Shown here piece after piece: positions 18,101-60,713 of a DNA stretch of 64,000 nt. Origin of the DNA: Loxodes magnus (Eukaryota; Ciliophora; Karyorelictea; Loxodida; Loxodidae); assembly GCA_946699065.1 (NCBI GenBank), contig CAMPDV010000063.1:788501-852500 (forward strand). Direction: 5' to 3'. The notes beneath the pieces are model-generated. The model saw only the letters and a program-made list of their open reading frames with translations. It did no database searches and was not told the origin of the DNA. The stretch's first letter is position 1, and the number at the start of each line of letters is the position of its first letter. Position numbers and translations under genes: made by a program.

Positions 18101-18207
18101 AGTTCTACTTCAGTTACATGAAGAAATCGGAAAGTATGTACGAACTCCTCAGCTTTTTTTCATCTCTCAAAATTTCGCATCACTAGTGTTTATAGACTTT
18201 ATTTTGA
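9151..18207 (+). CDS. Giant multidomain paralog B, probably frame-disrupted upstream
   Basis: From about 14296 to the TGA at 18205-18207 this is a near-copy of A in the same frame (1304 codons): GTPase-like, kinase-like, coiled-coil and C-terminal regions. Upstream, 10190-12600 is a diverged copy of the sequence before A, and 9320-10073 reads well in a further frame (for example ILLLDIGVNSSTSSLVYLNI). The first Met of the segment is at 9151. At least two frame changes, near 9310 and near 11670, have no GT-AG intron that repairs them, so the 5' half may be decayed or carry introns I cannot place. Differences from A: the ATG at 4488 of A is ATA here, the coiled-coil cassette and the ENQ repeat are of the C/D type, and the C-terminal tail matches C and D. 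The 16-nt intron lies at 14203-14218. The 5' end of this entry is a rough limit. Confidence 0.42.
10190..12600. repeat. Diverged duplicate segment, copy 2
   Basis: Counterpart of 960-2900 upstream of gene B. It contains a 2-nt net length difference near 11670 that breaks the frame relative to copy 1, and further indels near 11935-11960, so this copy is likely to be decaying. Confidence 0.75.
13965..17875 (+). repeat. Direct long repeat, copy 2 (core of gene B)
   Basis: Second copy of the A core, offset about 9.8 kb. Unlike the A/B match, the match to the C/D arms continues through the C-terminal tail to about 18125. B therefore resembles A at its 5' end and C/D at its 3' end, as expected of a recombinant. 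Confidence 0.9.
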
Positions 18208-21827: not shown

Positions 21828-24800
21828 TCAAAATGCAAGAGCATTCAGTCTTATACATAAACTTAGAAAAGAATTGTAGCATTCTGTTTTCTTCATGTAA
21901 CTGAAGTAGAACTCTTTTAGATTCTTGAGATGTTTGGATATTATGTTCCTTACTATGAAGTTTTACTCTGATCCTAAAACCTCATTAACTTATTAAGATT
22001 CTCTTGGTTGCTTTTACTTCACTTCTTCCTTATCCTCCTTTCTATTTTGAATCGCCCTCTATTTATTCTCTTAGTTCTAGCTCTCAAAAACTTACTAGCT
22101 ACTTATTGAAATCTATTATTATAGCTTCTCATTTGAAATAAGAAAGCCTAACTAATCCACGAGACCTTTATACATTTCCTTGTTTATATCTTCCTAATTG
22201 TACTATTAACCTCTCTATTCCAATAAAGGACTTTCTTTACTGTCTTAATTTGAATCAGATTCTATACTTGATTTCTATAAATAAAAATAACTTACATAAC
22301 CATTTTCTTGAATTATGTTTTCAGAAGAAAGCATTAAAACTTTATTATACGAAAGAGTCTAAATAGCTGACTTCTTTTACTAAAATGTCTTCTTTAGGTT
22401 ATTGTATAACATCTATAACTCCTAAAGTTCTTTCACATCTATACATAACACATCATTCTAATGATTATTCTACCAATAGTCTAACTTTTAGTTTTGCTTC
22501 TCTTCTGATGAATTTTCTTCGAATGGAAAGTAAATTCTTTGTTTCTTTAGTAAGGTAATAGGAATTAATCCATAGTTAACCATATTTAGAAGTTATTTAA
22601 CTAACTACTTAGCTACAATCTCATCTTATTTAGAGAGTAAAACTGATCTATCGAATAGGTTTACATTAGTTCAATAAGTAGTAAAGTCTTATCTTTTGCT
22701 ATTAACGAAAGCTATTTTATTTCCTCTCTAAACTGCTTATATAATTTCTTAAATTTAAGGTTTACTAATAATCTGATAGATATAGTCATTATCAATGTTT
22801 TGCATCTTTACTTTCATATTGAAATCAAGTGAATCAGATTAGTCTATCAGAAGTTATTTAGATATTTGAATAGCAGTATTAAGGTTAAGTAGTTAGTGAT
22901 TAGATTAGAAGTGTCTACTTAAGGAGATTAGTTGCTTATATTTCTAGTTTATTTGGTAAGAACTTATTTAAATAGCTTATTTATGTTCTATCATACTATA
23001 GATATACCAGTTAAACAGTAAACTAAATCCTCCATTATTTGCTATTTCCTAGTATATCTAATAAGTCTCAAAGTTTCTATTGCTAAACAACTATAAAATT
23101 AGTAAGAAACTAAAAGGAATCACAAGAGCGTAGTTATCAATGTACTCTTATTAACCTTTTCTTTCTAAGTAGATAGCAAGAGCTGATAGTTAGAAAGTGT
23201 TGAGTTAGAAATCTCTGGCTTGTTACTTGAAGTAGTTATAGAGTCTGCATTTATAGCTTAAGATAAATGATTCTTCTGTTACCTAAGTAGTTTATAGAGT
23301 AAAGGTGTTATTGGCTATGAGTTAGTTAAATTGTTAGTTTAAATAGTTTTAGAAGTTGTTTTAGTTAAATATGAATTAAACGATTCCCTTTATAAGTTTT
23401 TTGTTATTACTTTTCTGATATTTATCATAGTAATTTTTAAGTGTTTTAGTTTACAGAATAATGTGTTAGGACAGGTATTTAGACTATTTTTATTGATCAT
23501 CTTTGTATTTAATAGAAACATTTTATTTGTATTAGTTTTATGATTGTGTAAATCTTTCGAATAGAGATTTTATCCTTTGCTATATTTCTTAATTTTCTTA
23601 ACTTTCTTTTTCTTATACTTACTAAAAAGTTTCTATTAAATCTTACTCTTTTATGAAATTATCATTGTTGTTAATTCTCTATTAGATGTTATTATCATTG
23701 GTTTAATTATTTTGAGTAATTTAAATAGCTTTTAATACTTAAACTTTATTCTTTTTTTTAATTTTATTAGTTATTTTCTATTACTCATTTTACGAGATTA
23801 TTTGATTGATTTTTTCTTTCAAACTAGATTTTTCTATACTAAATTCGAGTTCTTTTAAGAGTTATAAAAGCTTTTGTTTTTGTTGCTAATCTAAATATTT
23901 ACATTAAGCAATGAATGTTTCAACTAGCTTTCTAAAACTTAATTTTTAATTGTTCTATTCTTAGTATTTTTAAAATAAACTATCTAAGTACTAATAATCT
24001 TTATTTTCCTATTTTTATTATTCTTCAGCTCTTTATCATTTTTAGTTCTTAATTTCATAATAGTTTTGTTCTTCTTAGTGTATTAAGTTTTAAACTAGCT
24101 TAGTGAGTTACTATTCTTAGATTTTTTGGTCATAAAATGCTTGATTAGATATAATTTGTTCTAAAGTTTCTAAAGGAAAGTATTGATAATTGTTTAAGTT
24201 ATTTTCTAATATTAAAATATGATTTTCTTATAGTAGTTTCATTTAAATTGGTTGCTAATAAAACTTTACTTTATTCATTTCTTCATTTACTAAAATAGAG
24301 TCTAAACTTAAGCTAACAAACTAATTCTATTTTATTAAGTTTAATCCAAATCTCATTATTTAGTATAGTAAACTTTCTAGCTGACTACTACTTACTATAT
24401 TTTCTTAAGATCTTTTAGTTTCTATTACTTACTTTAGAGGAAATAAACTTTAGGAGTTTTATGATTTTTATTCTTAGTAAATACGAATATAAGTAGATTC
24501 GTTACTTAAGTCTTTATAATGCTTATATTATATCATTTATTCACTATTTACCTTCTTTTATTTCCTTTATGTTTAATATACTAAAGCAGTTTATTCTATA
24601 TTTTTGTACATTTCTATTTTTAGTCATATTTAATCATTGCTTTTTATCTCCTAAGCCGATAAGTAAAACTCTATCCATAGACTGCCTACACTTATGACAC
24701 GAACTAATTTAATATTTGTAAATCCTAATTCTTCAAAAGGTATTTTTACTATATAGTTTTGATAAGCTTTATTATAAAGACTCTCAAGCTATTAAACTAT

Positions 24801-25799
24801 AACTCTTTTAGTTTTTATATTAGTTTTATTTTCTTATGATTCTTCTGTTTTACTTAGAGTTTATAAGTTAGTAGAATGAAGTTTATTATAAGACTTCATT
24901 TCCCTAAGAATTATTTAAGCTATTATATTCTAGTTTTAAGAATGTTATTTCTCATTATTCCAAGATAGTAGGTTAAGGTTGGAATTTTAATCTTCAGTCA
25001 TTTCTTTTAATTCTTTAGATACATTCTTCAAACTTTCTTCTTCAGTATCAAATAAAACAAAAAGAGTACTTTCTAGAATCTATTCACCATAAGTCTTAAT
25101 AAGCATAGTAAGTTATGTATCTTCTTTCACTTAGTGGCTTTGTAGACAGTAAAGGAACTTGAGTTTCTAATTTTAGATAGATATTTTCTGTATATATTTC
25201 TAGATTTGCTTTATGTTATTGATATCAATTATTTAGTATTTATTTCACTAGTATACATTTACTTGTTCATTTTAGGAGCATTTAGTTCATTTTTTATCAC
25301 TTAGGAATTCTTATAAAAACTTACATCCTTACTTTCCTAAAATAAAAACAGAAATTGTTTCCTTTTCAGCTTATAAGGAAGTATCTTTATTATCAAGTTA
25401 GGACATTAAGAATTCGTCTATTTTTACTTCTATTTGCTTCTGACAGATAAAGTTTCTTTATCATTATTAGTTTTTTAATCCTCTTTGCTTTTGTTCATCA
25501 CTACTGTTAGACCCTTCTTATTTCTTGCTTACTTAGCTTAGTTGATCCTACAAAAATATTTAAACCTTTTATTCTAGTTCCTTATTAAGATTATCATCCT
25601 AGAAGTTGAAACTTTCGAAAAAAAGCTATAAGATTCTAGAGAATATTTTTTGATCATTGATTCTAAATAACTCTTGGAACAAGGTTTAAACTTGACAGTT
25701 TTCTTGAGGAGGATTCTTTTAAAGAGACTGTTCAACAGATTATAAATCTTTTAGGGTGTGACATTTGATGATAATACTTAAAGCATTATGATTACTCAT
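21828..25799 (-). CDS. Giant multidomain paralog C
   Basis: This is an open frame of 1324 codons from the ATG at 25799 to the TGA at 21828-21830, with in-frame TGA only where the paralogs also have Trp. Rough residues: 1-140 N-terminal helical region (related to A but clearly diverged), 145-250 AIG1-like region without a usable P-loop, 330-565 kinase-like region without catalytic residues, 570-745 coiled coil, then an unrecognised C-terminal region. The Met at 25799 may be internal. The frame stays protein-like without interruption upstream to about 26390 (for example SINQNPDKKHTLVKQNSQLK), and an ATG at 26500 opens another good frame, so the real start probably lies in the 25.8-26.5 kb stretch. 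C is the left arm of a large inverted repeat shared with D and ends in a copy-specific tail. Confidence 0.52.
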
Positions 25800-25815
25800 T
25801 AGTTTCTAGATGGTA
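21880..25815 (-). repeat. Left arm of a ~3.9 kb inverted repeat (gene C)
   Basis: The reverse complement of this stretch matches 28935-32870 with only scattered substitutions, for example a small difference around 25753 against 28991. The inner boundary lies close to the Met at 25799. Confidence 0.9.
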
Positions 25816-28800: not shown

Positions 28801-28934
28801 ATCTTTCTAAAGGAATTTTATAGAATTCTAGAAGCTTTTGATTAAATGAACAATTTAAAGGAAGATACAAAAGAACTCATAATTTTAAATGAGACATACG
28901 CCCTGTGAATTTTATTGAAATAGTAGAAACCAAA
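25816..28934. other. Spacer of the inverted repeat, with probable 5' ends of C and D
   Basis: Minus-strand frames from 26500 down to 25800 look like the N-terminal part of gene C. Further stretches are coding-like but strand-ambiguous: 26806-27243 minus gives a 145-residue ATG-to-TGA frame with NPYKGNTFNTLDILSKII, while the plus strand over about 27070-27530 reads equally well and could be the 5' part of gene D. A divergent promoter between C and D is expected around 26.5-27.1 kb, but no motif is recognisable. The remainder is AT-rich. Confidence 0.4.
28180..28450. other. GC-richer island with hairpin
   Basis: This 270-bp stretch is clearly less AT-rich than its surroundings. It contains a perfect 6-bp hairpin with a 4-nt loop (AGTGCT CGTT AGCACT, about 28401-28416). 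The minus strand also holds a short frame starting MMTYTAQFKITFSSERRY. It could be a small structured RNA or a short exon. It matches no snRNA, SRP or RNase P consensus that I can recall. Confidence 0.35.
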
Positions 28935-31900
28935 TCTAGAAACTAATGAGTAATCATAATGCTTTAAGTATTATCATCAAATGTCACACCCTAAATGATT
29001 TATAATCTGTTGAACAGTCTCTTTAAAAGAATCCTCCTCAAGAAAACTGTCAAGTTTAAACCTTGTTCCAAGAGTTATTTAGAATCAATGATCAAAAAAT
29101 ATTCTCTAGAATCTTATAGCTTTTTTTCGAAAGTTTCAACTTCTAGGATGATAATCTTAATAAGGAACTAGAATAAAAGGTTTAAATATTTTTGTAGGAT
29201 CAACTAAGCTAAGTAAGCAAGAAATAAGAAGGGTCTAAAAGTAGTGATGAACAAAAGCAAAGCGGATTAAAAAACTAATAATGATAAAGAAACTTTATCT
29301 GTCAGAAGCAAATAGAAGTAAAAATAGACGAATTCTTAATGTCCTAACTTGATAATAAAGATACTTCCTTATAAGCTGAAAAGGAAACAATTTCTGTTTT
29401 TATTTTAGGAAAGTAAGGATGTAAGTTTTTATAAGAATTCCTAAGTGATAAAAAATGAACTAAATGCTCCTAAAATGAACAAGTAAATGTATACTAGTGA
29501 AATAAATACTAAATAATTGATATCAATAACATAAAGCAAATCTAGAAATATATACAGAAAATATCTATCTAAAATTAGAAACTCAAGTTCCTTTACTGTC
29601 TACAAAGCCACTAAGTGAAAGAAGATACATAACTTACTATGCTTATTAAGACTTATGGTGAATAGATTCTAGAAAGTACTCTTTTTGTTTTATTTGATAC
29701 TGAAGAAGAAAGTTTGAAGAATGTATCTAAAGAATTAAAAGAAATGACTGAAGATTAAAATTCCAACCTTAACCTACTATCTTGGAATAATGAGAAATAA
29801 CATTCTTAAAACTAGAATATAATAGCTTAAATAATTCTTAGGGAAATGAAGTCTTATAATAAACTTCATTCTACTAACTTATAAACTCTAAGTAAAACAG
29901 AAGAATCATAAGAAAATAAAACTAATATAAAAACTAAAAGAGTTATAGTTTAATAGCTTGAGAGTCTTTATAATAAAGCTTATCAAAACTATATAGTAAA
30001 AATACCTTTTGAAGAATTAGGATTTACAAATATTAAATTAGTTCGTGTCATAAGTGTAGGCAGTCTATGGATAGAGTTTTACTTATCGGCTTAGGAGATA
30101 AAAAGCAATGATTAAATATGACTAAAAATAGAAATGTACAAAAATATAGAATAAACTGCTTTAGTATATTAAACATAAAGGAAATAAAAGAAGGTAAATA
30201 GTGAATAAATGATATAATATAAGCATTATAAAGACTTAAGTAACGAATCTACTTATATTCGTATTTACTAAGAATAAAAATCATAAAACTCCTAAAGTTT
30301 ATTTCCTCTAAAGTAAGTAATAGAAACTAAAAGATCTTAAGAAAATATAGTAAGTAGTAGTCAGCTAGAAAGTTTACTATACTAAATAATGAGATTTGGA
30401 TTAAACTTAATAAAATAGAATTAGTTTGTTAGCTTAAGTTTAGACTCTATTTTAGTAAATGAAGAAATGAATAAAGTAAAGTTTTATTAGCAACCAATTT
30501 AAATGAAACTACTATAAGAAAATCATATTTTAATATTAGAAAATAACTTAAACAATTATCAATACTTTCCTTTAGAAACTTTAGAACAAATTATATCTAA
30601 TCAAGCATTTTATGACCAAAAAATCTAAGAATAGTAACTCACTAAGCTAGTTTAAAACTTAATACACTAAGAAGAACAAAACTATTATGAAATTAAGAAC
30701 TAAAAATGATAAAGAGCTGAAGAATAATAAAAATAGGAAAATAAAGATTATTAGTACTTAGATAGTTTATTTTAAAAATAGTAAGAATAGAACAATTAAA
30801 AATTAAGTTTTAGAAAGCTAGTTGAAACATTCATTGCTTAATGTAAATATTTAGATTAGCAACAAAAACAAAAGCTTTTATAACTCTTAAAAGAACTCGA
30901 ATTTAGTATAGAAAAATCTAGTTTGTAAGAAAAAATCAACCAGATAATCTCGTAAAATGAGTAATAGAAAATAACTAATAAAATTAAAAAAAAGAATAAA
31001 GTTTAAGTATTAAAAGCTATTTAAATTACTCTAAATAATTAAACCAATGATAATAACATCTAATAGAGAATTAACAACAATTATAATTTCATAAAAGAGT
31101 AAGATTTAATAGAAACTTTTTAGTAAGTATAAGAAAAAGAAAATTAAGAAGATTAAGAAAATTAAGAAAAGATAAAATCTCTATTCGAAAGATTTACACA
31201 ATCATAAAACTAATACAAATAAAATGTTTCTATTAAATACAAAGATGATCAATAAAAATAGTCTAAATACCTGTCCTAACACATTATTCTTTAAACTAAA
31301 ACACTTAAAAATTACTATGATAAATATCAGAAAAGTAATAACAAAAAACTTATAAAGGGAATCGTTTAATTCATATTTAACTAAAACAACTTCTAAAACT
31401 ATTTAAACTAACAATTTAACTAACTCATAGCCAATAACACCTTTACTCTATAAACTACTTAGGTAACAGAAGAATCATTTATCTTAAGCTATAAATGCAG
31501 ACTCTATAACTACTTCAAGTAACAAGCCAGAGATTTCTAACTCAACACTTTCTAACTATCAGCTCTTGCTATCTACTTAGAAAGAAAAGGTTAATAAGAG
31601 TACATTGATAACTACGCTCTTGTGATTCCTTTTAGTTTCTTACTAATTTTATAGTTGTTTAGCAATAGAAACTTTGAGACTTATTAGATATACTAGGAAA
31701 TAGCAAATAATGGAGGATTTAGTTTACTGTTTAACTGGTATATCTATAGTATGATAGAACATAAATAAGCTATTTAAATAAGTTCTTACCAAATAAACTA
31801 GAAATATAAGCAACTAATCTCCTTAAGTAGACACTTCTAATCTAATCACTAACTACTTAACCTTAATACTGCTATTCAAATATCTAAATAACTTCTGATA

Positions 31901-32870
31901 GACTAATCTGATTCACTTGATTTCAATATGAAAGTAAAGATGCAAAACATTGATAATGACTATATCTATCAGATTATTAGTAAACCTTAAATTTAAGAAA
32001 TTATATAAGCAGTTTAGAGAGGAAATAAAATAGCTTTCGTTAATAGCAAAAGATAAGACTTTACTACTTATTGAACTAATGTAAACCTATTCGATAGATC
32101 AGTTTTACTCTCTAAATAAGATGAGATTGTAGCTAAGTAGTTAGTTAAATAACTTCTAAATATGGTTAACTATGGATTAATTCCTATTACCTTACTAAAG
32201 AAACAAAGAATTTACTTTCCATTCGAAGAAAATTCATCAGAAGAGAAGCAAAACTAAAAGTTAGACTATTGGTAGAATAATCATTAGAATGATGTGTTAT
32301 GTATAGATGTGAAAGAACTTTAGGAGTTATAGATGTTATACAATAACCTAAAGAAGACATTTTAGTAAAAGAAGTCAGCTATTTAGACTCTTTCGTATAA
32401 TAAAGTTTTAATGCTTTCTTCTGAAAACATAATTCAAGAAAATGGTTATGTAAGTTATTTTTATTTATAGAAATCAAGTATAGAATCTGATTCAAATTAA
32501 GACAGTAAAGAAAGTCCTTTATTGGAATAGAGAGGTTAATAGTACAATTAGGAAGATATAAACAAGGAAATGTATAAAGGTCTTGCGGATTAGTTAGGCT
32601 TTCTTATTTCAAATGAGAAGCTATAATAATAGATTTCAATAAGTAGCTAGTAAGTTTTTGAGAGCTAGAACTAAGAGAATAAATAGAGGGCGATTCAAAA
32701 TAGAAAGGAGGATAAGGAAGAAGTGAAGTAAAAGCAACCAAGAGAATCTTAATAAGTTAATGAGGTTTTAGGATCAGAGTAAAACTTCATAATAAGGAAC
32801 ATAGTATCCAAACATCTCAAGAATCTAAAAGAGTTCTACTTCAGTTACATGAAGAATACAGAATACTTTG
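28935..32870 (+). repeat. Right arm of a ~3.9 kb inverted repeat (gene D)
   Basis: Mirror image of 21880-25815. The arms are separated by about 3.1 kb of spacer. The outer boundary falls inside the C-terminal tail, after the shared codons for FYFSYMK. Confidence 0.9.
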
Positions 32871-36965: not shown

Positions 36966-39023
<2,058 letters not shown>

Positions 39024-39029
39024 TTATAT

Positions 39030-39627
39030 AATAAAATTGCCTCTATCTATTTATTTTTACTACCTACTTATCAGTGACTACCTCATCAGCTTAGAGTTCT
39101 TTTCTTTACTAATTTTATTACTTTTAGTTACCAGCTCTAACTAACGTTTCTAAGAATGTATATAAGTAGTTAGTATTATTCTTAGGCTTATATGAAGGTT
39201 GAAAAACACTAGGGTAATTAATGTGTAGATATATAACTAATATGTGTGTTAAATTATACTGGCCAGCTCTTGCTAGTTTACTATATATAGTATCTTTAGC
39301 ATTAAATAGAGTAAAACTTTCTTAACTAATCAGTAGATTTTAAAAATCAAAGTAATGAAAATAGTTGAATAGAAATTTAGTTCTCAGGTATAATAAAATG
39401 AAGATGACTTCTTTGATAAAATCCTCGATTCTTTTTCTTTGATACACGAAAAGCTTCTTTTACTACACTTGATTTTTGTTTTCAAGTTGAATTAACACAA
39501 TATTCTAGTATAGAATAGTTCAGAGGCTTTGCTTAAGCAATGAGAAGCTTATTAGGTAATTTAAAAGAGATTTCAATAAGTAGGTTGGTTTTTCTGCATA
39601 TGTGTTTTGAAGTCTCATCTTCATCAT
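39030..39627 (-). CDS. Open frame upstream of the kinase, separate gene or 5' exon
   Basis: An ATG at 39627 begins MMKMRLQNTYAEKPTYLLK. The frame reads well down to the kinase start, including RKELQADEVVTDKQVVKINR, but reaches no TGA before it overlaps the kinase start in another frame. That is expected if a short intron joins the two, and unexpected for an independent gene. No domain recognised. The exact splice cannot be placed by eye. Confidence 0.35.
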
Positions 39628-46277: not shown

Positions 46278-47477
46278 ATGGTAGTGAAGAGAGTATAAAC
46301 ATTATTTGCTCTTTTAGTGATTTTATCATTTCTAAGTTATGTTCTAATATACAATTCATTGTAATACTCTAGTCAGTAATCTTATGTACTTGCCAGCTAG
46401 CGAGACTTAATAAGACTTGGTAATTAAACAACTAAGATTGCTTAGCTTATTAACCCTGATGCTTATAACGTTTAGTTGTAGTAGGTTGCAAAATTGGCTC
46501 TTTCTATTTAGAGTTAGATTTTTAATGGGACTAAGAAGATGAAAGCTGTAAGGTAGAGAAGTCTGCATTTTTAGTTTAGTAATTAAGTTCTTAAATTATT
46601 CAAAACGAAGCGTGATCCTGCATCTAATGATATATCAAGAGTTTTTGAAGTAGGCAAATATAAACCTGCTACTTTGCTAATTTTGGAGCATTTTTTGAGA
46701 CCGAATTTCAAGGTTATAGACGCAGGAGGTTGGTATGGGCACTTTCCGATTGTAGAAGCAGCATTGCTAGATCACGATAAGGGAGGAATGGTATATACCT
46801 TTGAGCCTAATGAGCTGATTTTTCAGTTTCTATAAAACGCGATTGCAACTAATGAATTCGAGAATAAGATTAAAGGATACAACTATGCTCTTTATAATAC
46901 TAACGGTTTGATGGATTTTAGTATGTTCTAATACTCTCTATACTCTGCTATATCAGAACTTTACACCAAACCAACTGATTAAAAAATCTACCTGATAACG
47001 AACAATTTTTTAAGTACCGTAACTAAGGTCAAAACAATAACCTTAGATCACTTCTTTGATAAAATGATTTTGAATGAAATAAATTTGCTAAGATTGGATG
47101 TGACATTTTCTGAACTTTATGTACTTTAAGGAGCGAAGAATTTAATAAAAAGGTCACCTAACTTAGTCATCATTTTCTAGTGATGGAGTAATTTCAATAG
47201 TTTATATGGTGAGAATTATGTCTCACAGACACTTGATTGACTTATATCCTTTGGCTTTAAATTCTGATATCTAGATAATAATAAGGTGAACCAGGATTCT
47301 GTAGATCTGCATTCAATTAAAGAAGCAAAATAAAACAATACTATAGCACCTAAATTCTAGATGGTGGATAAAAATTTCCTTTTAGGATATTACTTTCTAG
47401 ACTTCTAGGTAGAAATAATGGCAGCGAGAAAGGAAACAGTGATCAGATATTTGGAACATTTTAAATGGATTTTTTGA
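46278..47477 (+). CDS. FkbM-family methyltransferase, membrane-anchored
   Basis: ATG at 46278, TGA at 47475-47477, 399 residues, no intron needed. Residues about 7-28 form a signal anchor (TLFALLVILSFLSYVLIYNS), making a type II membrane protein. The SAM-binding core follows: FKVIDAGGWYGHFPIVEAA (motif I, VIDAGxxxG), GMVYTFEPNELIFQFLQN (FEP, typical of FkbM), then TLDHFFDKM and LLRLDVTFSELYVLQGA (LKID-like, altered to LRLDV). FkbM enzymes usually methylate sugars or small molecules; the substrate is unknown and a lumenal orientation would suggest glycans. Several tryptophans, for example in FWYLD, are TGA. Confidence 0.85.
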
Positions 47478-48259: not shown

Positions 48260-51200
48260 ATGAAAGCCAAAATTCCTAAACTTAAGATTAAAACTCCTTA
48301 AGAACCAAACGAACCTGCTCCTCCAAAATCTGTTCGAGGTTTAAGGCAACAAAGAGTAAACAAGAATCAAAGAAGATCTTAAACTCCTGGAAGAACTGCG
48401 TTAAGTGAAGCTATTCAATAAGGATAAACCGGTACTGAATAGATAGCGATAACCATGACTAAGAAGTATCCTAAGGTATTTTATCAGTATGAGAAAGACT
48501 AGAAACCTATTTCTGTTATGGTTTAAAGAGATGACTAGCCTTATAAGTTTAAGATGAAAGGGTTAAAGGATGAATAATTAACTTCCATTTTGCCTGATGG
48601 AAAACTTATTCACTTATTCGAAAGTCCAGAAAAAACACACAGCCATGTTCAATAATAGTCTGAGTATATAAAAGAGAACTTGTAATACACTCTATGCTCC
48701 TAGCTCAAACTATTCAAAAATTTTAGAAAGAGAAAAATACTTAAAAAGTGAAGAATGGCAAATGTGTACCGATAATATTGCATTTAAAGAGCAAAAATGG
48801 TGAAACACTGACCGATGGCAAGACCTTTGTTTTCTCAGCATGTAGGGGACTTCTAAAAGCAAATATACGATATAACGTAAATAAACCTCATCTACATAAA
48901 GTCTAATTAACTATTCAAGTATAATGACTCATTTTAGGACAAAACTGCTTAGTAACTACAAGTAGGTGTTAAACTATTTGAGAAATATTTGGCAAATGTC
49001 TAGAAGGTAATAAATAGTACTGTGCTTTTACTTGACTCTCGACATGGAGTGGAGGATGAGTAGTTCTACAAGAAATAGATCAACAATATGTTCACTTTTA
49101 AAAAGCCCGGATTCCAGGATCTGAATGTAGAGACGAAGAATTTGAACTTAACGGCTGAATAGAAATTTAACTTGAATAGAAAGCTTGAGCTGGATATAAG
49201 AGAAAGGTTTGTTATATTTTTGAAATCTTAATTAGTAGATACAATTGCAACTCTGCTCATAAACAACCAGCAATAACTTCAATCCTGAATTGAAACATCT
49301 CCAGGTAATCCATAATGGCAACTATCTCTATAACCTCAAAGAGTATTAATCCCAAGTTTAAAAGACTTATGCACGATCATGAAATAGACGATTAACAACA
49401 TGAACGAGTCTATTATTTTTAGTGAAGGTTTGGAAAAAACAGTATAAATGTTACCTTAAGACTATGGACACTTTGTTACTAATGTTAAATTCGTTCTGGA
49501 AAAGAAATTAAAGATAAATTACTTAGAGTTAATTTAACAGAAGTTTGAGAATGAGTTCAAACAAGCATAGGAGAAAGTGAATGAACTTAAATTCACAGAC
49601 GGTTTGAAAGGTATTTTCTAAGAAGGGCTTGCTTAGATAAAGAAGAATCCAATACAGTACTATAGAGAAAACCTCCATAGCTTAGGGCAATATGAGAACT
49701 AATTAGAGCAAATTCCTAACCAAGACGTACATGTTGGTATTCTGATAATAGAGCCTCAAGATTTCAGAAACTCTTTATTCAAGCTTCTCAAGTAGCTCAA
49801 CTTTGAGCTAAAGGATGCAATGCTTTGTACCTTAAACGAAGATGCTCGCGTTCTTAGAGAGTCAATGATGAAAGACTATGAAATTCTTAACATAACCGCA
49901 GGTGATATTCAAACTTTTGTCAACTAGATAAATACCTTTACTAAGCTCAACAGTATAACTGATGGATAGACTCTATTTTAATTCTACTAGCAAAAAAGAA
50001 ATGACTTGACATTCATGAATTAGCAATGCAGGAAGCTTCAACTTAAGATATCAGCTAATACTAGTTTAGATCTAGATAACATAAAGAACTACGAATATAA
50101 GCTGCAAACTATCCTTGAAACAATCCAGACAAAACTGATGGACTAACATTCTGACTTTATATACATTCTGAAAAACAACGTGGAAAAGCTTACAAGGCAA
50201 ATATAGGATTTTAAGAAAAAGTACGTCAAACGATATTTGAGTGAGGAATCAGTGAAAAGGCAAAATATACTAAAGGAACTAGAAATTAGATCAGAGGCTA
50301 TAGAATAAATGTAGAAGAGACTCACTGAGTTTTAGCAGTTCTCAGACGAAATTTCTAACTTTAGTAAGCAATCTAAGACTAAATCCTGAATCGAAAACTG
50401 TAAAATTGCTTTCTAAGAGATCACAATTATCCATGAGGATACGGTAAAACTCTGGAAGATCATATATTATACCTACCATTTTGCTTAGAATGTTCTATAG
50501 CTAGACTTTAAAATCTTAGATTTCAGTAAGGTTTATAAGGATATTTCGAATATCAAAAAAGCCCTCTCTAAAACGAACTTCAAAGAGGGATTTGCTAGTT
50601 CTATTGAGAAGCTAATTAAGAAATAACTCGGTACAGTTTCTGAACTGGAAGCACTGCTTAAGAAATTCGAGCCTTTGAAAGCTCCATCAATGTAAATGCA
50701 TAACTGGGATTAAGTTTTTCAGTCTGTTGGCGAAGCTAGAGCACCTTCAGTGTTCACAATATAGCAGTTGCAGGATAAAGGTTTACATAATGCATAGATA
50801 AACATGATTCTTAAAGAAGCTTAAATTTAATATGAGATCTAGAAATTCCTTAATAAGATATAAGATCAATGAAGTCAATAGCAACTTCTAATGGCAGCTT
50901 ATAAGGATAAAAAAGACGTAACACTGATTTCAAATAGTAAAGATGTTCTCAACCAAATTGACTCAGACTAAGTTCAAGTTGATCAGTACTTATAGGTGTA
51001 AAACTAGAATGAAAATTTGCTATAGTGAAAATAAAAATTTTCGAAGTGAAAGGAAGTTTTACAAAACCTAGCTGAGCTTTAGAAATTGTACTTAAAAGTG
51101 GAACAAGCACATACTTTAAACTTACTAGAAGAGCGTGAAATGTTTACTTAGTTCAAGCAAGTCATGTTTCATATCTAACTTCATCCTCTTGTATAAGAAT

Positions 51201-54200
51201 GCCTATTGAACGTACAAACTAATGTATAGAAACTAGTTCAAGAATTCAAGAACATAAGAGCGAATGTGACTACATAGTTAGAAGGTAAAAGGATTTCATT
51301 TCCAAGATTGTTCTTCCTGTCAGATGGGTAATTAATAAGTTTCTTGAGTAGTAGTTACTCAGAACATGCTCATTTTGTTTTTCCTAATATAAAGGAATTT
51401 TATATATAGGATGTTCATATGGGTGAAAAACAGTCTTAAAGCAGTACGAGAAATCTGACATAAGCTTTAGCAGAAGAATGTTTCCATAAGAAGGTACTAG
51501 GAATGATAGGATCGTAGATGGAAATTTTCCTTTTTGAAAAATCAATTCCTTTAGATTTTTCCAGAGAGTCAAGCTAAGAAGGCTATAACATCTTAGAAGA
51601 TATTGAAAAGAGTATGCAAGAAACTGTTCGATCTTAGATCGGAAAAGCGATTTAGGATTTTCCAAAGGAAAGCTTAGATGAATGGGTGTAAGATTGGAGT
51701 CTTTAAGCGATATTAACCTCAATCCATTTAATTTTGACACATGAGATATCAGATTTGCTTGAGTAAGGAGGCGAAATTTAAGTAGTTTAAAATAAATTGT
51801 AGGAGAAAAGCTTAGACGGTTTATACCATAGACTTCTGTTCTGGATTGAAAAATTACTTAACTGTTAGAAGTAAAACTAGCTATTCAAAGGCATGCCGCT
51901 TTAAATGCAGTCAATACTTACTCATTTAATTTACTTTAAGGAGTTAGTTTGGGAACTAAAAAATGAAAAGACCCTCAAGCCAGATTTTGAGTGGTATAGT
52001 TAAATGCGTCTCTACTGGATGGAATCTGAAGAAATGGTAAAAGTAGAATGTGGTGGATGGGCGACTTATCAAGGTAATGAATATCTTTCCTTATATCGCA
52101 GCTTTTTAAATCCTTTAACAGTTAGGTACATGCTTCACGTGGCTAGCACCTTCCGTGAAAGAAGCGCTGTACATATAATGGGAGAATAGAACAATATAGT
52201 ATAAGAAATGGCAAGCATATGCACTTAACCATACTTCACATGTCAATGTAATTCTGAAATCAGTCAAAGTTTACTTATGTAGTATCTAAACGGAGCAGCT
52301 CTCACTAATTTCTGGGTGCTTTTTTAGAATGTTGAATACTTAAAAATATAAGACCTGCAAGCTCTTGTTAAAGAGGTTCAGATGGTATAGTAATAGTTCT
52401 TAATAGCAGAATTACCATCATCTGAAAGTATAAAGTAAAATAGTAATAGTCAATCAGGTAGCAAAATAGATAACTAGAAGTCTGAAGACCAAGAAAGCGT
52501 GAACAAAGATGAAGATAGTAGTGAAGAGGAATAAGACCTAGAAGAAGAAAGGAAAGCGTAATTAAAGAAAGAAACATAAAAGTATGTTTTAAAGTAACTG
52601 GAAAGAGAAAAGAAAAAAGAAATAGAGCAAGATTAAGATATTGAAGATTAAGACTAAGACTAAGACTCAGATCAAGATAATGAAAACGAAAACGAAAACG
52701 AAAATGAAAACGAAAATGAAAACGAAAATGAAAACGAGAAATAATCCAACTATAAAATTCAGCAGTTACAAGAAGAACAGCAGTCTTCTAAATAAGATAG
52801 TTTGACAAGTATATCAATGGAGTCATCTAGTAAATCTGACACTCCAAAAGCATCACTATAAAAATCAATCTCTCCTTAACTAACTTAATTCAGCGTATTT
52901 ATTCACTCATCTATTAAAATTCCAAATATCGAATTAGGACCGATATATACCTCTTTTAGAACTATCTCAATCATACCACCTTGTAACAAAGTTCTCCTTG
53001 AAGCTCTATGCATTACTCATGGAATAATCGAAAATACTACTGAAATAGCAACATTACCTTTGAAGTAGATTATCTAGTTTTAGAATACAATCTTACCAAA
53101 GTCACTTAACATAATAGACCTAAAAGCAGTCTGTGAAATTGTCAAGAGTACACTTAAAAACTCTTTTAAAAGCATTTAGGAAATAAAGCAGGCATTTGCC
53201 TATAGTTTAGCTTAGATATGTCATCTGAAGTTCCCAGACTATAAAGAATAAACTAACAAATACATTTACAACATCTTTGACGTTAGGATTCCTATTATAT
53301 AAAACACTGACGTTACTAACAGTCTGAAGCAGTTTTCAGCTAAAAATGGTCTTCAAACATTGGAAATTTAATATTAATAAGTAATTCAGATTTTATAGGC
53401 GCTAGGATTTAATAAAATCGTATGTCTAACAGGATAAATAGGCAAAACAACATCCATCCAAATGCTAGGCCATGTACTGAAAGAACTTAAAGGAGTGTAG
53501 CTCCATACGTTTGAACTATGGCCAAGTGCATTGAATATAGATACTCTGATTTCAAAATCAGATGCTTAGGGACTTATTTATAGAATTATTGAAGCTGCAT
53601 CTTAATATAATATGTCAGCATTACTGTTTAAGACTCTAAACATTCAAGAATACATGCTTTAGTTCTTACTGTAAGTAGTTGAGGTAAGGAATACTATAAT
53701 CCTTCCAAACGGAGTTTTACAGAAATGGCCAAAAGATTTATGCGTTATAATCGAAACTACTCATATAGGAAAATTACCCCCATCTTTCATCGGTAATATG
53801 AGCATTGTTCACTCTTATAACATTACATGGGAAGATCTTATGGAAAATCTATACTTTAAAATAGAGTAAAACGGAGACTTTTTAAAGATTGGTATGTCCT
53901 AACTATTTGTCAGGCAGAAAATTAACTCAACGCTAATAAAATTCATAGCTCGTATTTGCAAGAACTGTAAACTTAGTAATTAGAAGCAACTTAAGATGGT
54001 GTACAGTTTCCAGAACCTACTTTACTTACTACTTAAGAAACTAATCCAGTCCAATGAGAGGTTAGAGCCTCCTGATATTTTAGACATAGCCTTATAGATT
54101 AGTTTAGTGCAAGGAATACTAACCTAGCTAACTCAAGATTAGAGAGCGATATTCTATTAAGAATGGAAGCATATTCAAATGGATTAAAGGTACAAGATAC

Positions 54201-57200
54201 CTGGGGAATCTTTGCTTGATTACTATTGGGATTCTGATAGCTTGTAGTTTAGACATATCAGCACTGGTGAATGGCCTCTTTACTCCAATACCTTAATATA
54301 CCAAAACCACTACAACGTAATAGTTCCTACCTAGATAATGCAAGAGGATAGATAAAGCTTGGAGCTATTAAGTGAATATTTCCCTACAATTCACTTGATA
54401 GGTAAGCAAGGACATGGAAAAACTACTCTTATAAGATATAGCAAAATCCTGGCAGAACCACATTGCTATACGTATCAATCAGCAATACTATTCCCTATAA
54501 ACTGGACTAACTAGAATATCTTGATTGATGATCTTAATATAAGTGATGGCAATAAATATGAGCAGCTACTATCATTGTAGAGATAATAGGGATATTATGA
54601 TGACCAATTTCAATTCAAACCAGTCACTGGCAAGCAAATAATTGTCTTGAACAAATCCTCTGATTGGATGGTTTATGATTCTCATGATTTTTTTATTTAA
54701 AGTCCAGGAGACGAAGAATGCTACGACATTTTCATTAAGATAATTACAAACTGGACCATTCTGTACAAATACAAAGATTTGCTATACAATGCTACAAAGA
54801 AAGTCTTGGAAAAAGAGTAAAAGGATTGCAAGAATCTGACTTTCCAGACTAAAACAGTCTACAGAATAATATGGTAGAGCTAGAAATTGGGAGATGAATG
54901 CTTATAAACGTGTTAGAATCAAAATGAGGTGATAACCAAAATGTGAAGCACTTCTATACTTTTATCTATTACAAACGATAGTAAGCTCATAAAAGCAATA
55001 AGCAAGGAGTTCTTTGGAGACTATAAAATTAAAAATATCAATATTTAGAACTACATTGACCAACAGTCATTGAACAGTAACAAAATAGTTAGCACCACTG
55101 ACATTATTTAGAAGATAAAGACACCATTAACTACTTACTTTTGCACTTGTGATAGCTCATACTCAATGCCTTAATGGACAAAGAGTATATAAATGATACA
55201 GTTTGTATGGAATATATGCCATCTTTTAACAAGCTAGAACACTTAGATCACGATCATATCCCCACATGGATAAGGAGTATTTGAGCTGCTTCAAATAAGC
55301 TGTGCTTTAATTAACCACTAGATTAAGTTTATAATGACTAGCGAAGATATTTTCCTTTAGAATCCAAATTCAGAAGTTTTACTCTACTATGACTACTTCA
55401 AAAAGAGTGATGAGGAAAGGAGTAAAATACTATAAAAATTGGTATAGCTAGCAGTGCAGTAGTCAATTCAGAGCATGTTCTAAGGAGTTAACATCTAAAA
55501 TAGGATAATTCTAATTTTCAACTCGATGGAAGACTATCAACGTAATTTCTTGGATAAATACCAGGTTAATGTCGAAAGTTTATTTTAGGTAGTTGTGAGA
55601 CCATAGGAAAAGATAAACAAGCTAGTGAGATAATAGATAGAGTATATTAACTTTTAGAAGACATACATAAATGAGGTTTACTCTGGAATAACTAATGGAC
55701 TGAAGTACTTAAGCGAATAAGGTATCGATATTTCTTATATCAAAGCGCTTTAACTTATTGAAATGTGCGATAAAGTAAGTAGGAAGTTAGTCTAGTCAAT
55801 GATGGATAGAAGATCGACTATAGACTAGATTTTAACCAAATTGCTTTACTAGAAGTAAATCCTTGACGATCCTAGTTTGTTAGGTACTAATACAGTCAAA
55901 ATTCAGAAATTAGATAAAAATATAGCTTCATTGAAATAGGATTATGAGGAGAAACAGGAAGTAGTGGAAGAATCCAATCAAAACATTAGTAGAATTTAGG
56001 TCAGATTAGATATTTTGGAATCACAGCTCAAGTAACATCTTGAACCTAAGAAGCAAAACATTGAAGAAAAGTTCAAAATTTTGCAAAACATCGATGCAGA
56101 ATAATGGGCTAACTTGTAGACGCTTGTACCAGAAAAATCCTTCGACTTTTCCATAATTCTAACTCTTGCTCTTATAATTACCTAAGACTAATAACTAACA
56201 AAAGAGTAAGTATATGAAACTTTAAAGGAAAAAAAGAATGTTACAATATAGCTAAGAAAACGGAACTAAGAGACATTTCCTCCTTTTATTTGCTTAAAGC
56301 TAGCTGAGACGGTAGATTAGGGTAAACGCAAAATTAAGCAAGCAGTCTGTAGCGCTACATATGACTATTTAGAAGCCCTTTATATGAACCTTCAGGCTAT
56401 GAACATTCTAGCTTCTAATCTTTAGGAATTTAATAGCTTAAAGGACTAACTTGAACATCATTAAAAAACTAAAACTTAGACTTAGCAATTTCTACAGAAG
56501 ACAGAGGAATCAATGTATAACCTAACGCTTATAAAGAATAAACTAGCGAAGGAAAATGTGGTTAAAGAGTAGTCTAAAGAGTCTATTTCAACCTGTGTTG
56601 TCTCTTTGCTAGATAGATATAAGCTGAAGTAAAAAACAATATAGCAACATCTGGATAATTTGCTAGGAGATGTTCTTATGGCTTCATTGTCCACTTTGTT
56701 TTTAGGTGTTGTTGAGCCAGACTAAATTGTATAAATCCGCTCGAAACTCGCTAAGTGTGTAACGAATGATTTTATCAAAATGAATGAAGCTTGGTATAGC
56801 GAAGAGTCTCATATATCTATCTTTAAGAAGATCTTGAAACATCTTGGATTGAAGAAAGAAATGGACTAGAAACTAACTCTAGTACTTGATGAAGGTTAGG
56901 TATCTGAAGCTATTTTTAGTTACTTCTACACTGTAAGCACACCGTATTTCTTAGACTCATATGGAATATTCTACGAACTATTGACAGAGATAGTAGATCT
57001 CCCTATTAACAAAACAAGCAAAAGTGTTAAATTTATCTATATGGGATTGTAGCCAGCTGAGCTGGAAAATAGTACAAATGGATTTTTAACAATCGTATAG
57101 TACAAAAATTAATTGGGAGATTGCTGGCATAACTGCAAAACAGACCGAAACGATAATTTCATTTTTCAGAGAGCTTTATTTGCGAATAACTACGGATAAT

Positions 57201-58555
57201 TAGACAAATGCATTCAGCAAGAAAGTACAATTATCAGATGTGACAAGTTGAATATCCCTGAAGCTTGGGCTAATTTAAAGGAAGTATTGCTGAAATACAT
57301 CGCTCCAGAAAATTACAATTCGTTGTAAGTTATTAAGAAAAAGGTGGTTGACCATAAGAGCAATTTATAGAACTAGAAAGTAAAGCTAGAAGAGTCACTA
57401 ATAGCAGGTGAGCAGGAATTTTTAAGTTAACTTAAAGAAGTCTAAACAATGGAGTAAAAGTTCAATAAGGCTGTCGACAAATTCAACTACACTATGAATG
57501 ACATTCCGTTACTTGCAGCGACTAGTCACTTGATATCCTTAATGTACTTAGCTGCTAAAAGCCAAAATTGCAAATACTCTTGGCCATTCTTCTTAGAAAT
57601 AATAGACTTGCTAGTTTCTAAGTCACTTAGAGACTTTAACAACAAAAAAGAAGGAGAACAGGTAGATGAGCAATTTTTCTATCGAAATCTACTGCCAAAC
57701 ATATGAAACCTATTTATATGCAGCATTCCATAAAATGAAACTATCTTGCTTAACTTAAGAATGGCAATTCAACTGTCTTAGAATCGAAATGAAATCTCCT
57801 AATAAGCAATGCAGTTGTTTTGAGATAACTTCATACCAGACTAGATAACTACTAAGACGATTAAAACCAAAACAGCAGATATTTTATTCTAGATAAAGCA
57901 GATATATGGAGAGGAGGTTAGCATTGATATCAATAGTAAGGAATTTTAATAGTCGAGTACATTCTGTAAAATATTGCTTGCTTTGAATGTTAATGATAAT
58001 ACCCAGATTTTCAGTTAATTAGCTAGGCAGTTCATATATGAAAGCTTAACGTAAGCATGGGATTTTGTTGAAGATATACCAAAATTGCATAACTATGTCA
58101 AAATGGCAAGTTGGTCAGTCCCAGTCGTTCTTTACAGTCGCTTGGGAATGAATGTTGTGCATACTATATGTGCATTAGCGAATTATTACTCAGTTGGACT
58201 GGAAGTTATAAGAACAGACTCAGGAAAAGAGGATGACCCAGCTGTACAGACAATTCTAAAATGTGCAGAAGAAGGTAACTGGGTTCTACTAAGCACAACA
58301 AAATATCCACCTTTCTTCAAAAAAGTTTTACAGAAGTTACAACTCCTAAGATCTTGCAGAAGCATAGTAAACTCTTTCAGACTCTTCATCGATTTACAAT
58401 GCATGGAAGACGTCGAAATGGATCTAGTGATAAACAAAGGAGTGGTATTTCATATGGACTACTTGAACCTAGAAGAAGTGGAAGGATATAACGATGTATG
58501 GGGAAATATGTTAGAAGGACCTCTGGAAATTAGTCGTGCAATTGCAAATGATTGA
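48260..58555 (+). CDS. Divergent dynein heavy chain with inactive AAA1
   Basis: The frame is uninterrupted over 3432 codons from the ATG at 48260 to the TGA at 58553-58555. The stem has the axonemal-type W...NVYRQYCIQRAKMVKHW region; the linker tryptophans (LLQWKQKFSKWKEVL) are TGA. AAA1 begins at about residue 1245 (WYSQMRLYWMES, NPLTVRYMLHVAS), but where GPAGTGKTET is expected it reads HIMGEQNNIVQEM, and the Walker B is lost. AAA2 has TGQIGKTTS. AAA3 at about 2045 keeps HLIGKQGHGKTT and LIDDLN. AAA4 is degenerate (SPHGQGVFE). The stalk coiled coils lie at about 2550-2800. AAA6 (CAEEGNWVLLS) is near the end, with no C-terminal domain. An acidic NENENEN tract lies between AAA1 and AAA2. Probably axonemal, but not a normal motor. 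Confidence 0.88.
52676..52742 (+). repeat. Asn-Glu codon repeat in the dynein gene
   Basis: Tandem GAAAA(C/T) hexamers encode about eleven Glu-Asn pairs, preceded by Asp-Gln repeats. The tract sits in an acidic insertion between AAA1 and AAA2, where dyneins normally have no such linker. Confidence 0.9.
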
Positions 58556-58756
58556 AAATTTTAAAATATCTATTTTAAGTTTAAATCTTAACGCATTTTA
58601 TACAATGTCTCTTTTCTTAATCCATCATATATAAGACATAATTTAATACTGAGTATTTGTTCTATATGTTGGAGTTTCAAATATTATCGATGTTTAATTT
58701 ATATTCTAGATATTTTAAAACTATATAACCACGAAGTAAACTATTTTTAATATAAT
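58556..58756. other. Short intergenic region
   Basis: About 200 bp of very AT-rich sequence separate the dynein stop from the next start. No other feature seen. Confidence 0.6.
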
Positions 58757-59980
58757 ATGGATGATCCAAATGAAAAGGACGTGCTTTCGTAGGAAAAGCC
58801 AATTATGATTAAGAAAAATATTATTGATAGAGATCCTCACTGGGGGGATGTTATGACGTTTATGCCTTTAACTCTCCTAGCATTACTGATAGTTTGACTG
58901 TTCTATTTCCATAGAAATTTCTGGGTAATTATTTGGATTGTTTACGCACTATTTCCTTTCCTAGACTATATAGCTCCACATGATAATGCAAATCTAAGTG
59001 AAAGAGTAGAGAAAACATGGGCTAATGACAAAAGATTTTTGATTCCCTTGTATCTATTTTGGGTAACTGATGTTGCTTTATACTTTTGGTCGTTGTATGT
59101 AGTATCAACTGGATAGTTAAATGGGTGGAAGGAATGGATGTTGTTCACATACACTTTAGGTAATCTATGTGGAGCAAATGTGGTTAATGGACATGAGTTA
59201 GCTCATAGAAGAGAGGGCTTATCTAAATTTATGGGAACCATAACCTTTGGTAAAATGATTTATTCTCATTTCTATATTGAGCATCTATTTGGTCACCATA
59301 TGAACGTAGCTACTGAAAATGACCCAGCTACGGCAAAGAAAAATGAAATTCTTTATCCATATATTATAAAAAGTGTACTGGGCGGCTTCAAAGATGCTTG
59401 GAAGATTGAAAATTCATGGTTTCATAGAAGAAAGAGAAGCGCATTTCACTACAGCAACAGAATGATTTGGTTTACCCTGCTCCACATCGTTTAACTAACA
59501 GCAGTTTACTATTTCTTAGGCAAGCAAACTTTATACTTTCATCTTTGGTATTCAGCTTGTGGTACTTATTTACTAGAAACTGTTAATTACATTCGTCACT
59601 ATGGTCTATAGAGGAAAATGAAAGAAGACGGTTGTTTCGAAAAGATTGGTTTCACTCATTCATGGAACGCTCCACAACGTTTCACAAATTACCTTCTTTT
59701 CAATCTCTAAAGACATTCCGACCACCACTACGATTCAAGTCGTCCTTACTAAGTCCTAAGATCATTAGAATAATCTCCAATAATGCCTCACGGCTACTCA
59801 GTCTGCATAGTCTTGGCAATGGTAACTCCAGTATGGTTCGCGATTATGAACCCATACGTAGATGCCTTGCGACAAGGTGAAGAACTAAAACCAGCAGTAA
59901 AAAAGAGAGTTCAATTCTTAATTCTAACTACTCTAATAGTTATCTCTGGTGGTTTGACATTTGCAATGCTATTTATTTGA
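58757..59980 (+). CDS. AlkB-type alkane/fatty-acid membrane hydroxylase (diiron)
   Basis: ATG at 58757, TGA at 59978-59980, 407 residues, close to the usual ~400 of bacterial AlkB. Histidine boxes are complete: HELAHRREG, EHLFGHHMNVATENDPAT, LQRHSDHHYDSSRPYQ, plus NYIRHYGLQ where the family has NYxEHYGL (Glu changed to Arg). Several transmembrane segments precede and separate the boxes. One Trp, in LLIVW, is TGA and Gln residues are TAA/TAG, so the gene is adapted to the host code. Predicted reaction: O2-dependent omega-hydroxylation of alkanes or fatty acids with rubredoxin-type electron donors, at the ER membrane. AlkB is mainly bacterial, so old lateral transfer is likely. It is less AT-rich than the flanks. 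Confidence 0.92.
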
Positions 59981-60713
59981 TAGAGATATGAGGATTATAT
60001 ACAACTTCTATATAAATTAAATCTTTTTTAAAACATGCTAATTAAAACAAGTTTAGTAAGGTAAATACTATCATTCTCTATACGAACCTACCTCATAATC
60101 TTAGTCAGTAACCCATTTAGATTTTTCAATATCTACTAGTCTTTATAATGTCATTGATACTTCGCTTGGCGTTATTTTTATTTCTTATCTATTCCCTTAC
60201 TTATTATGCTTTACATCTATAAATGATTTATATTCAAGAAAGTAATTTTAAGTAACTTGCTAGCCATGTAGTTAATTTTAGGAAACACTCTTATAAACCA
60301 ATGCTAAGTAGCATTTTTTATTTAATGCTAACTCGAAAAGCTAAATGTTATCATAAGAAGAATCCAACATGAGATGCATTAGCAAGAGGATAAGAAGTGA
60401 TTGATGATGTTCTTGTACCTAAGTCATCCGACTAAAAATTGAGTAAAGGATGAAGAAACTAATCTTAACTTAGCTCTCTTCCTGTATATTTTTAATTAGC
60501 ATCTCTCATTAAAATTATTATATCTCCTAGTTGAAGAAATATCTTGAATTGATACCCTAAAATACATAATAGGATCATCAAAATATTGAAATAGCAACTG
60601 AAGAAAAAAGGTAGTGAAGTAACAATTTTCTAATCTTAAGAATGTAGCCAATCTTGATAATATTGATACTATCATACTTATGTATGTCTAATATGGTAAA
60701 TGACATGCTTTTA
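59981..60713. other. Intergenic, nothing firm recognised
   Basis: AT-rich sequence between the AlkB-like gene and the next plus-strand ORF. I see no RNA gene and no convincing frame with both ends. Confidence 0.35.

Follow-up and report, generated by a model that had tools for sequence, protein, structure and literature searches.

The gene at positions 48260-58552 of the window (the whole 64-kb stretch of the Loxodes magnus genome analysed here) is dynein-derived, judged from its sequence, and most likely encodes a non-motile dynein-shaped scaffold. Alignment to the ordinary dynein heavy chains of the same genome confirms the loss of its AAA1 site; genes with such a loss are called dead below. 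On balance, we think that the product is a pseudo-motor, probably a ciliary scaffold that is static or switches slowly, and that it comes from one old AAA1-dead lineage with at least 11 genes in this genome.

Reading frame and AAA1 site

The gene forms a single frame of 3431 codons under the karyorelict code (code 27), followed by the stop TGA at 58553-58555, so that the intact frame reported by the first-pass annotation of this DNA holds. It is open only when TAA and TAG are permitted as glutamine and TGA as tryptophan; in the available text of the genome paper, UGA of L. magnus is described as Trp or stop (PMC11441545). The frame contains 10 in-frame TGA, whereas the remaining two frames of this strand have 67 and 124, and the tryptophans encoded by TGA at residues 871 and 923 align to tryptophans of the ordinary linker. 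GC content is 32.7% in the gene against 18.9% in 58556-58756.

We consider the gene to be dynein-derived since it matches the linker family DHC_N2, its closest solved structures are dynein chains (Chlamydomonas DHC2, 8glv_Lc, E 1.8e-22; DNAH1, 9fqr_X1, E 3.5e-19), and hhalign aligns its residues 728-2122 with eight of the ordinary dyneins from this genome at E 1.8e-28. Its features up to AAA1 are the following:

48260..58552, + strand: dynein-heavy-chain-like gene with a dead AAA1 (3431 codons, code 27; Pfam linker match)
48260..50437, + strand: N-terminal tail ahead of the linker (without a Pfam match at E 1)
50438..51646, + strand: linker, DHC_N2 (Pfam, residues 727-1129, 136.6 bits, cut-off 31.9)
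52067..52417, + strand: first part of the AAA1 large subdomain (register shared with ordinary dyneins; start taken from the alignment)
52172..52195, + strand: HIMGEQNN at the position of the Walker A loop, against GPAGTGKT, about 4 residues short (alignment to ordinary AAA1 sites)
52310..52345, + strand: place of Walker B, FWVLFQNVEYLK against CFDEFNRI in ordinary genes (alignment)
52418..52879, + strand: acidic low-complexity insertion in AAA1, about 150 residues (read directly from the translation)
52880..52927, + strand: place of AAA1 sensor 1, FSVFIHSSIKIPN against FITMNPGYAGR in ordinary genes (by eye)

The first-pass annotation had described a dynein-type protein in which the P-loop of AAA1 is replaced and the Walker B CFDEFNR is gone, within surroundings that are still recognisable (NPLTVRYM). 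The alignment to 28 ordinary AAA1 sites bears this out. GPAGTGKTE and C[FL]DEFNR are present in 28/28 ordinary heavy chains found in the genome, and in the gene studied here the Walker A row reads RERSAVHIMGE----QNNIVQEMA, while CFDEFNR is replaced in register by LFQNVEYL (QNVEY for DEFNR). NPLTVRYM lies at 52109-52132, the flanks are in register, and the spacing from Walker A to Walker B has the same length as in ordinary genes. Downstream of the acidic insertion, sensor 1 also appears by eye to be lost.

That an assembly error or an unrecognised intron conceals a normal AAA1, with a GxxGxGKT motif restored upon correction, is extremely improbable. Introns of L. magnus are tiny (mean 19.3 bp in the available text of PMC11441545) and the AAA1 region offers 13 GT..AG pairs of 3n length. 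However, intron removal cannot restore the P-loop in a site that already falls short of the normal length, and a missed intron is no explanation for a short site whose two flanks lie in register in one frame; Walker B is lost in ten further genes too. In the six frames of 51801-52700, the sole P-loop-like string is GIWRNGKS near 52021, which we rejected as a chance match because it lies in another frame, with TGA read as W, about 150 bases upstream of the Walker A position.

Elsewhere in the window, a FkbM-type methyltransferase domain (Methyltransf_21, 46764-47264, + strand) lies just 5' of the dynein-like gene, and a protein kinase gene (Pkinase, 209.8 bits) occupies 36969-39329 on the - strand. 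Multi-kilobase repeats, direct and inverted and 96-100% alike, are found at 4169-8138, 13977-18132, 21878-25811 and 28934-32867. Frames of 454 and 306 codons recur in them and gave no Pfam match in a scan of one copy of each; the repeats may be of recent mobile or segmental origin.

Other AAA modules, stalk and end of the protein

The features downstream of AAA1 are the following:

53420..53455, + strand: AAA2 P-loop, two residues short, LTGQIGKTTS
54392..54427, + strand: AAA3 Walker A, intact, HLIGKQGHGKTT, with GKQGHGKTT (fits the consensus)
54518..54538, + strand: AAA3 Walker B, intact, ILIDDLN (FVDDLN and similar in ordinary genes)
55247..55279, + strand: ITIISPHGQGV where Walker A of AAA4 is expected, degenerate (consensus compared by eye)
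55871..56608 (approximate limits), + strand: probable stalk, a long helix, a tip of short helices and a long helix (single-sequence fold)
56609..56716, + strand: beginning of AAA5, weakly matched to a profile of ordinary dyneins (hhalign 33.7, E 0.004, probability 8.4%)
58115..58423, + strand: AAA6 core, Dynein_heavy (residues 3286-3388, 26 bits, E 9.6e-6, below the curated cut-off of 30.5)

AAA3 retains GKQGHGKTT and LIDDLN as first annotated, with a Walker A that fits the consensus; further canonical residues around it seem altered by eye, which counts against the pseudo-motor reading. The loss goes beyond AAA1, the AAA2 P-loop being shortened, AAA4 degenerate and the protein ending shortly past the AAA6 core. 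The gene shares the linker with the axonemal inner-arm chains DNAH1 and Chlamydomonas DHC2, its best solved-structure matches, and differs from them by its dead AAA1 with an acidic insertion, its shortened AAA2 P-loop, its degenerate AAA4 and an AAA6 lid and C-terminal domain that were not found with Pfam.

The probable stalk was modelled from the single sequence, without relatives, with a mean pLDDT of 54.7. Block values are 71-84 for residues 101-150 of the model and 76-83 for residues 281-320, and the tip falls to about 28-43; pLDDT above 70 across much of the paired helices was counted for the pseudo-motor reading. The top Foldseek match of this model is a trypanosome dynein heavy chain (9e5c_6c), at an E of only 0.01. 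Dynein chains rank 1, 5, 21 and 43 among the best 50 listed, none with E <=0.001, and the dynein stalks 3wuq, 8i3j and 5ayh rank lower; in a second Foldseek comparison, unrelated coiled coils reach equal or better scores. A homology to the microtubule-binding tip that had been seen by eye was unsupported by profile comparison, which recovered only the start of AAA5 (hhalign score of 33.7 against a maximum of 20.4 in 20 shuffles).

The protein stops 43 residues beyond the AAA6 match. Neither the protein nor the three forward frames of 58200-60401 gave a Pfam match to the AAA6 lid or the C-terminal domain; a copy too diverged for Pfam would escape this search, yet just 43 residues remain. The frame past the TGA at 58553 continues without further TGA into a desaturase-type gene. 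A continuation of the dynein-like protein into a C-terminal domain was ruled out, the gap having 18.9% GC and the downstream Pfam match being FA_desaturase (77.4 bits). This gene (58757-59977, + strand) starts 201 bp past the dynein-like stop in the same frame, no in-frame TGA lying in between, and its product is a desaturase-type membrane enzyme that may resemble alkane hydroxylases.

Dead and ordinary dynein genes of Loxodes magnus

We searched the L. magnus assembly (705.7 Mb, 7843 contigs) for the linker family. Of the 46 DHC_N2 matches, 28 lie in ordinary genes; the other 18 are weak and correspond to the gene studied here, ten other dead genes (C20, C35, C175, C147, C73, C59, C74b, C9, C38 and C4b) and fragments on C19. 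At least 39 linker-bearing dynein genes are thus counted, 28 ordinary and at least 11 dead, as lower bounds from 43/43 candidates scored in each of the linker and AAA1 searches; the C19 fragments (4 of the 18 weak matches, in three places) and the C382 pair are excluded. The single pseudo-dynein of the first-pass annotation does have a dead AAA1, but at least ten further genes of this genome share that state. For comparison, 25 dynein heavy chains are tabulated for Tetrahymena in the accessible part of PMC3341644, and the word 'dynein' occurs 0 times in the available text of the L. magnus genome paper (PMC11441545).

AAA1 was read in all 11 divergent linker-bearing genes, and its Walker B is lost in every one (11/11), so that the ten others resemble the gene studied here in having a linker and a lost Walker B. 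Walker A is lost or shortened in 10/11, C73 retaining GxxxxGK followed by Q. In the genome profile search, the AAA1 family PF12774 was detected in 5/11 dead genes, the gene of the window not being among them. At the place of Walker B, N-[VIA]-E-x-L is found in six of the 11 (this gene, C20, C35, C175, C147 and C74b). The other modules vary: the AAA2 P-loop has its full length in 5/6 dead genes compared and is shortened in the gene of the window and in C59, and the AAA3 Walker A fits the consensus in this gene and C73 while it is altered in C175, C147, C20, C35 and C59. The best solved-structure match of a profile built from six other dead genes is DNAH1 (E 2.1e-99), and no dead chain is apparent by name among the best 60 of 83 matches to solved structures.

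Some further loci were met in these searches. L017 and L019 (C382a, b) are diverged genes with AAA_6 matches and an intact dynein AAA1, without a DHC_N2 match. On C20, one dead and one ordinary gene (C20:1163429 and C20:1179105) share a strand, their AAA1 sites being separated by about 16 kb, and perhaps stem from an old tandem duplication. Broken dynein copies with in-frame TGA are found at C19:898k and 930k, on the same contig as the ordinary dynein C19:1000075.

Trees separate dead from ordinary genes. The branch between 7 dead and 8 ordinary genes has a support of 100/100 from linker to AAA2 and 99/99 with the linker alone, in unrooted trees that hold 8/28 ordinary and 7/11 dead genes; with AAA1 alone, 11 dead and 28 ordinary genes split at 100/99 (all 39 genes, 146 columns, Walker columns retained). 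The branch of the gene studied here is long (2.44 to 3.66 across trees), and the split may partly reflect an attraction of fast rows because branches are long. Within the dead genes, the six others with long sequence form their own clade (100/97, linker tree) with the gene of the window outside. A pairing with C59 is rejected on the linker (p-AU 0.0097), and the AAA1 tree groups the gene with C59 and C74b at 82/82. In these trees, the gene attaches firmly to none of the dead subgroups.

The simplest reading of these sequences would be one origin of the dead genes, with the gene of the window branching early. A loss of AAA1 in a separate dynein, independent of that in the other ten genes, is unlikely. 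In its favour, besides the position of the gene outside the clade of six, profile comparison gives a stronger match with ordinary dyneins (E 1.8e-28) than with six other dead genes taken together (E 1.1e-15). By blastp, six ordinary loci were matched (best E 6.3e-17), no other dead gene was matched at E 1e-4, and among the divergent loci compared only C175 was matched (E 7.2e-4, over AAA1); the ordinary L003 and L007 were present on the wrong strand and unable to match. Against a separate loss stand the 99/99 support with which all 7 dead genes are set apart from the 8 ordinary ones, and the N-V-E-x-L at the place of Walker B that the gene has in common with dead relatives.

Selection could be judged in two pairs of dead genes, by pN and pS only since silent sites are saturated. 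The pair C175/C147 (5129 codons, protein identity 58.2%) gave pN 0.251 and pS 0.843, and the pair C20/C35 (4709 codons, 60.1%) gave pN 0.236 and pS 0.784. In the dead AAA1, identity is 73.6% in C175/C147, the best-kept stretch computed, and 60.9% in C20/C35. Because pS is saturated while pN is low in both pairs, at least four dead genes are maintained, with strong purifying selection against amino-acid change in C175, C147, C20 and C35. As to the gene of the window, its maintenance as a protein, stated by the first-pass annotation, draws support from the open frame and these four paralogues, and not from a dN/dS of its own, for lack of a close paralogue. That lack, the very long branch (2.44 on the linker), the several degenerate AAA modules and the truncated end would also fit a decaying pseudogene whose frame is still unbroken. 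We consider this quite unlikely in view of the 3431-codon frame, the strong depletion of TGA and the purifying selection on the four other dead dynein genes. A truly broken copy looks different: C19:848237 (L023), the one of the three C19 places at which AAA1 was read, keeps GPAGTGKT and a Walker B DEINR yet has four TGA in a 324-codon match, the reverse of the gene studied here.

Proposed role of a dynein with a dead AAA1

Taken together, a dead AAA1, the retained Walker A and B of AAA3, the linker, the open frame and a ring and stalk that presumably still fold lead us to propose a static or AAA3-gated strut. In this proposal, the chain would still fold into linker, AAA ring and stalk, but a power-stroke cycle would be impossible without AAA1 hydrolysis. 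The protein would then be a strut or scaffold on microtubules, probably those of cilia, either static or slow to switch, with AAA3 perhaps serving as a nucleotide switch, ATP at this site stabilising or switching shape instead of driving movement. One old lineage would have lost AAA1 activity and multiplied later, the gene of the window being an early or isolated branch. For the pseudo-motor we count the linker match, the dead AAA1 against 28/28 intact ones, Walker B lost in 11/11, the AAA3 consensus, the low pN with saturated pS of two dead pairs, the dead/ordinary tree splits and N-[VIA]-E-x-L in 6/11; against it, the profile and blastp results closer to ordinary dyneins, the long branches and the rejection of the C59 pairing by the linker.

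Since Walker A and B of AAA3 match the consensus, the protein might still move or work enzymatically with AAA3 as its power source. This is very unlikely, the ATPase powering the dynein complex being AAA1 by published description (accessible part of PMC8754002) and the Pfam search of the protein and of the forward frames of 58200-60401 having found no AAA6 lid or C-terminal domain. Descent from the orphan DNHD1 lineage, of this gene alone or together with its ten relatives, is improbable as well. DNHD1 is the nearest case by description and the sole comparable one found when reports of such a loss of AAA1 were sought, in a literature that excludes most subscription papers. In the available text of these reports, it is a human orphan dynein-related "ghost gene", possibly turning pseudogene (PMC8754002), a long protein required for sperm flagella (PMC8754002, PMC9916431), and its mutations are reported with sperm flagellum defects (PMC8754002, PMC9916431, PMC9749982). 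Both genes are dynein-related and DNHD1 stands outside the 15 human dynein heavy chains, a likeness of description. However, the best PDB matches of the gene studied here are DHC2 and DNAH1 chains, and one such gene is named in humans against at least 11 dead genes in L. magnus. Moreover, AAA1 of DNHD1 may even be live, because one disease variant is placed in its hydrolytic ATP-binding site (PMC9916431).

With the strut reading preferred, a broader idea can be put forward tentatively. The usual definition of dynein makes it a motor. Karyorelicts may have built a second, motorless dynein class, at least 11 of 39 linker-bearing genes being dead and the testable ones conserved; its members could serve as struts or nucleotide-gated microtubule linkers, set here by AAA3, and perhaps be paired with live heavy chains. 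If this is true, the ring, linker and stalk of dynein would be useful without a power stroke, with more than a quarter of the linker-bearing genes found dead at the power site and kept nonetheless. Such genes would provide a natural set of mutants for the roles of the other AAA sites and of the stalk alone, and the unexplained human orphan DNHD1 may have found company.
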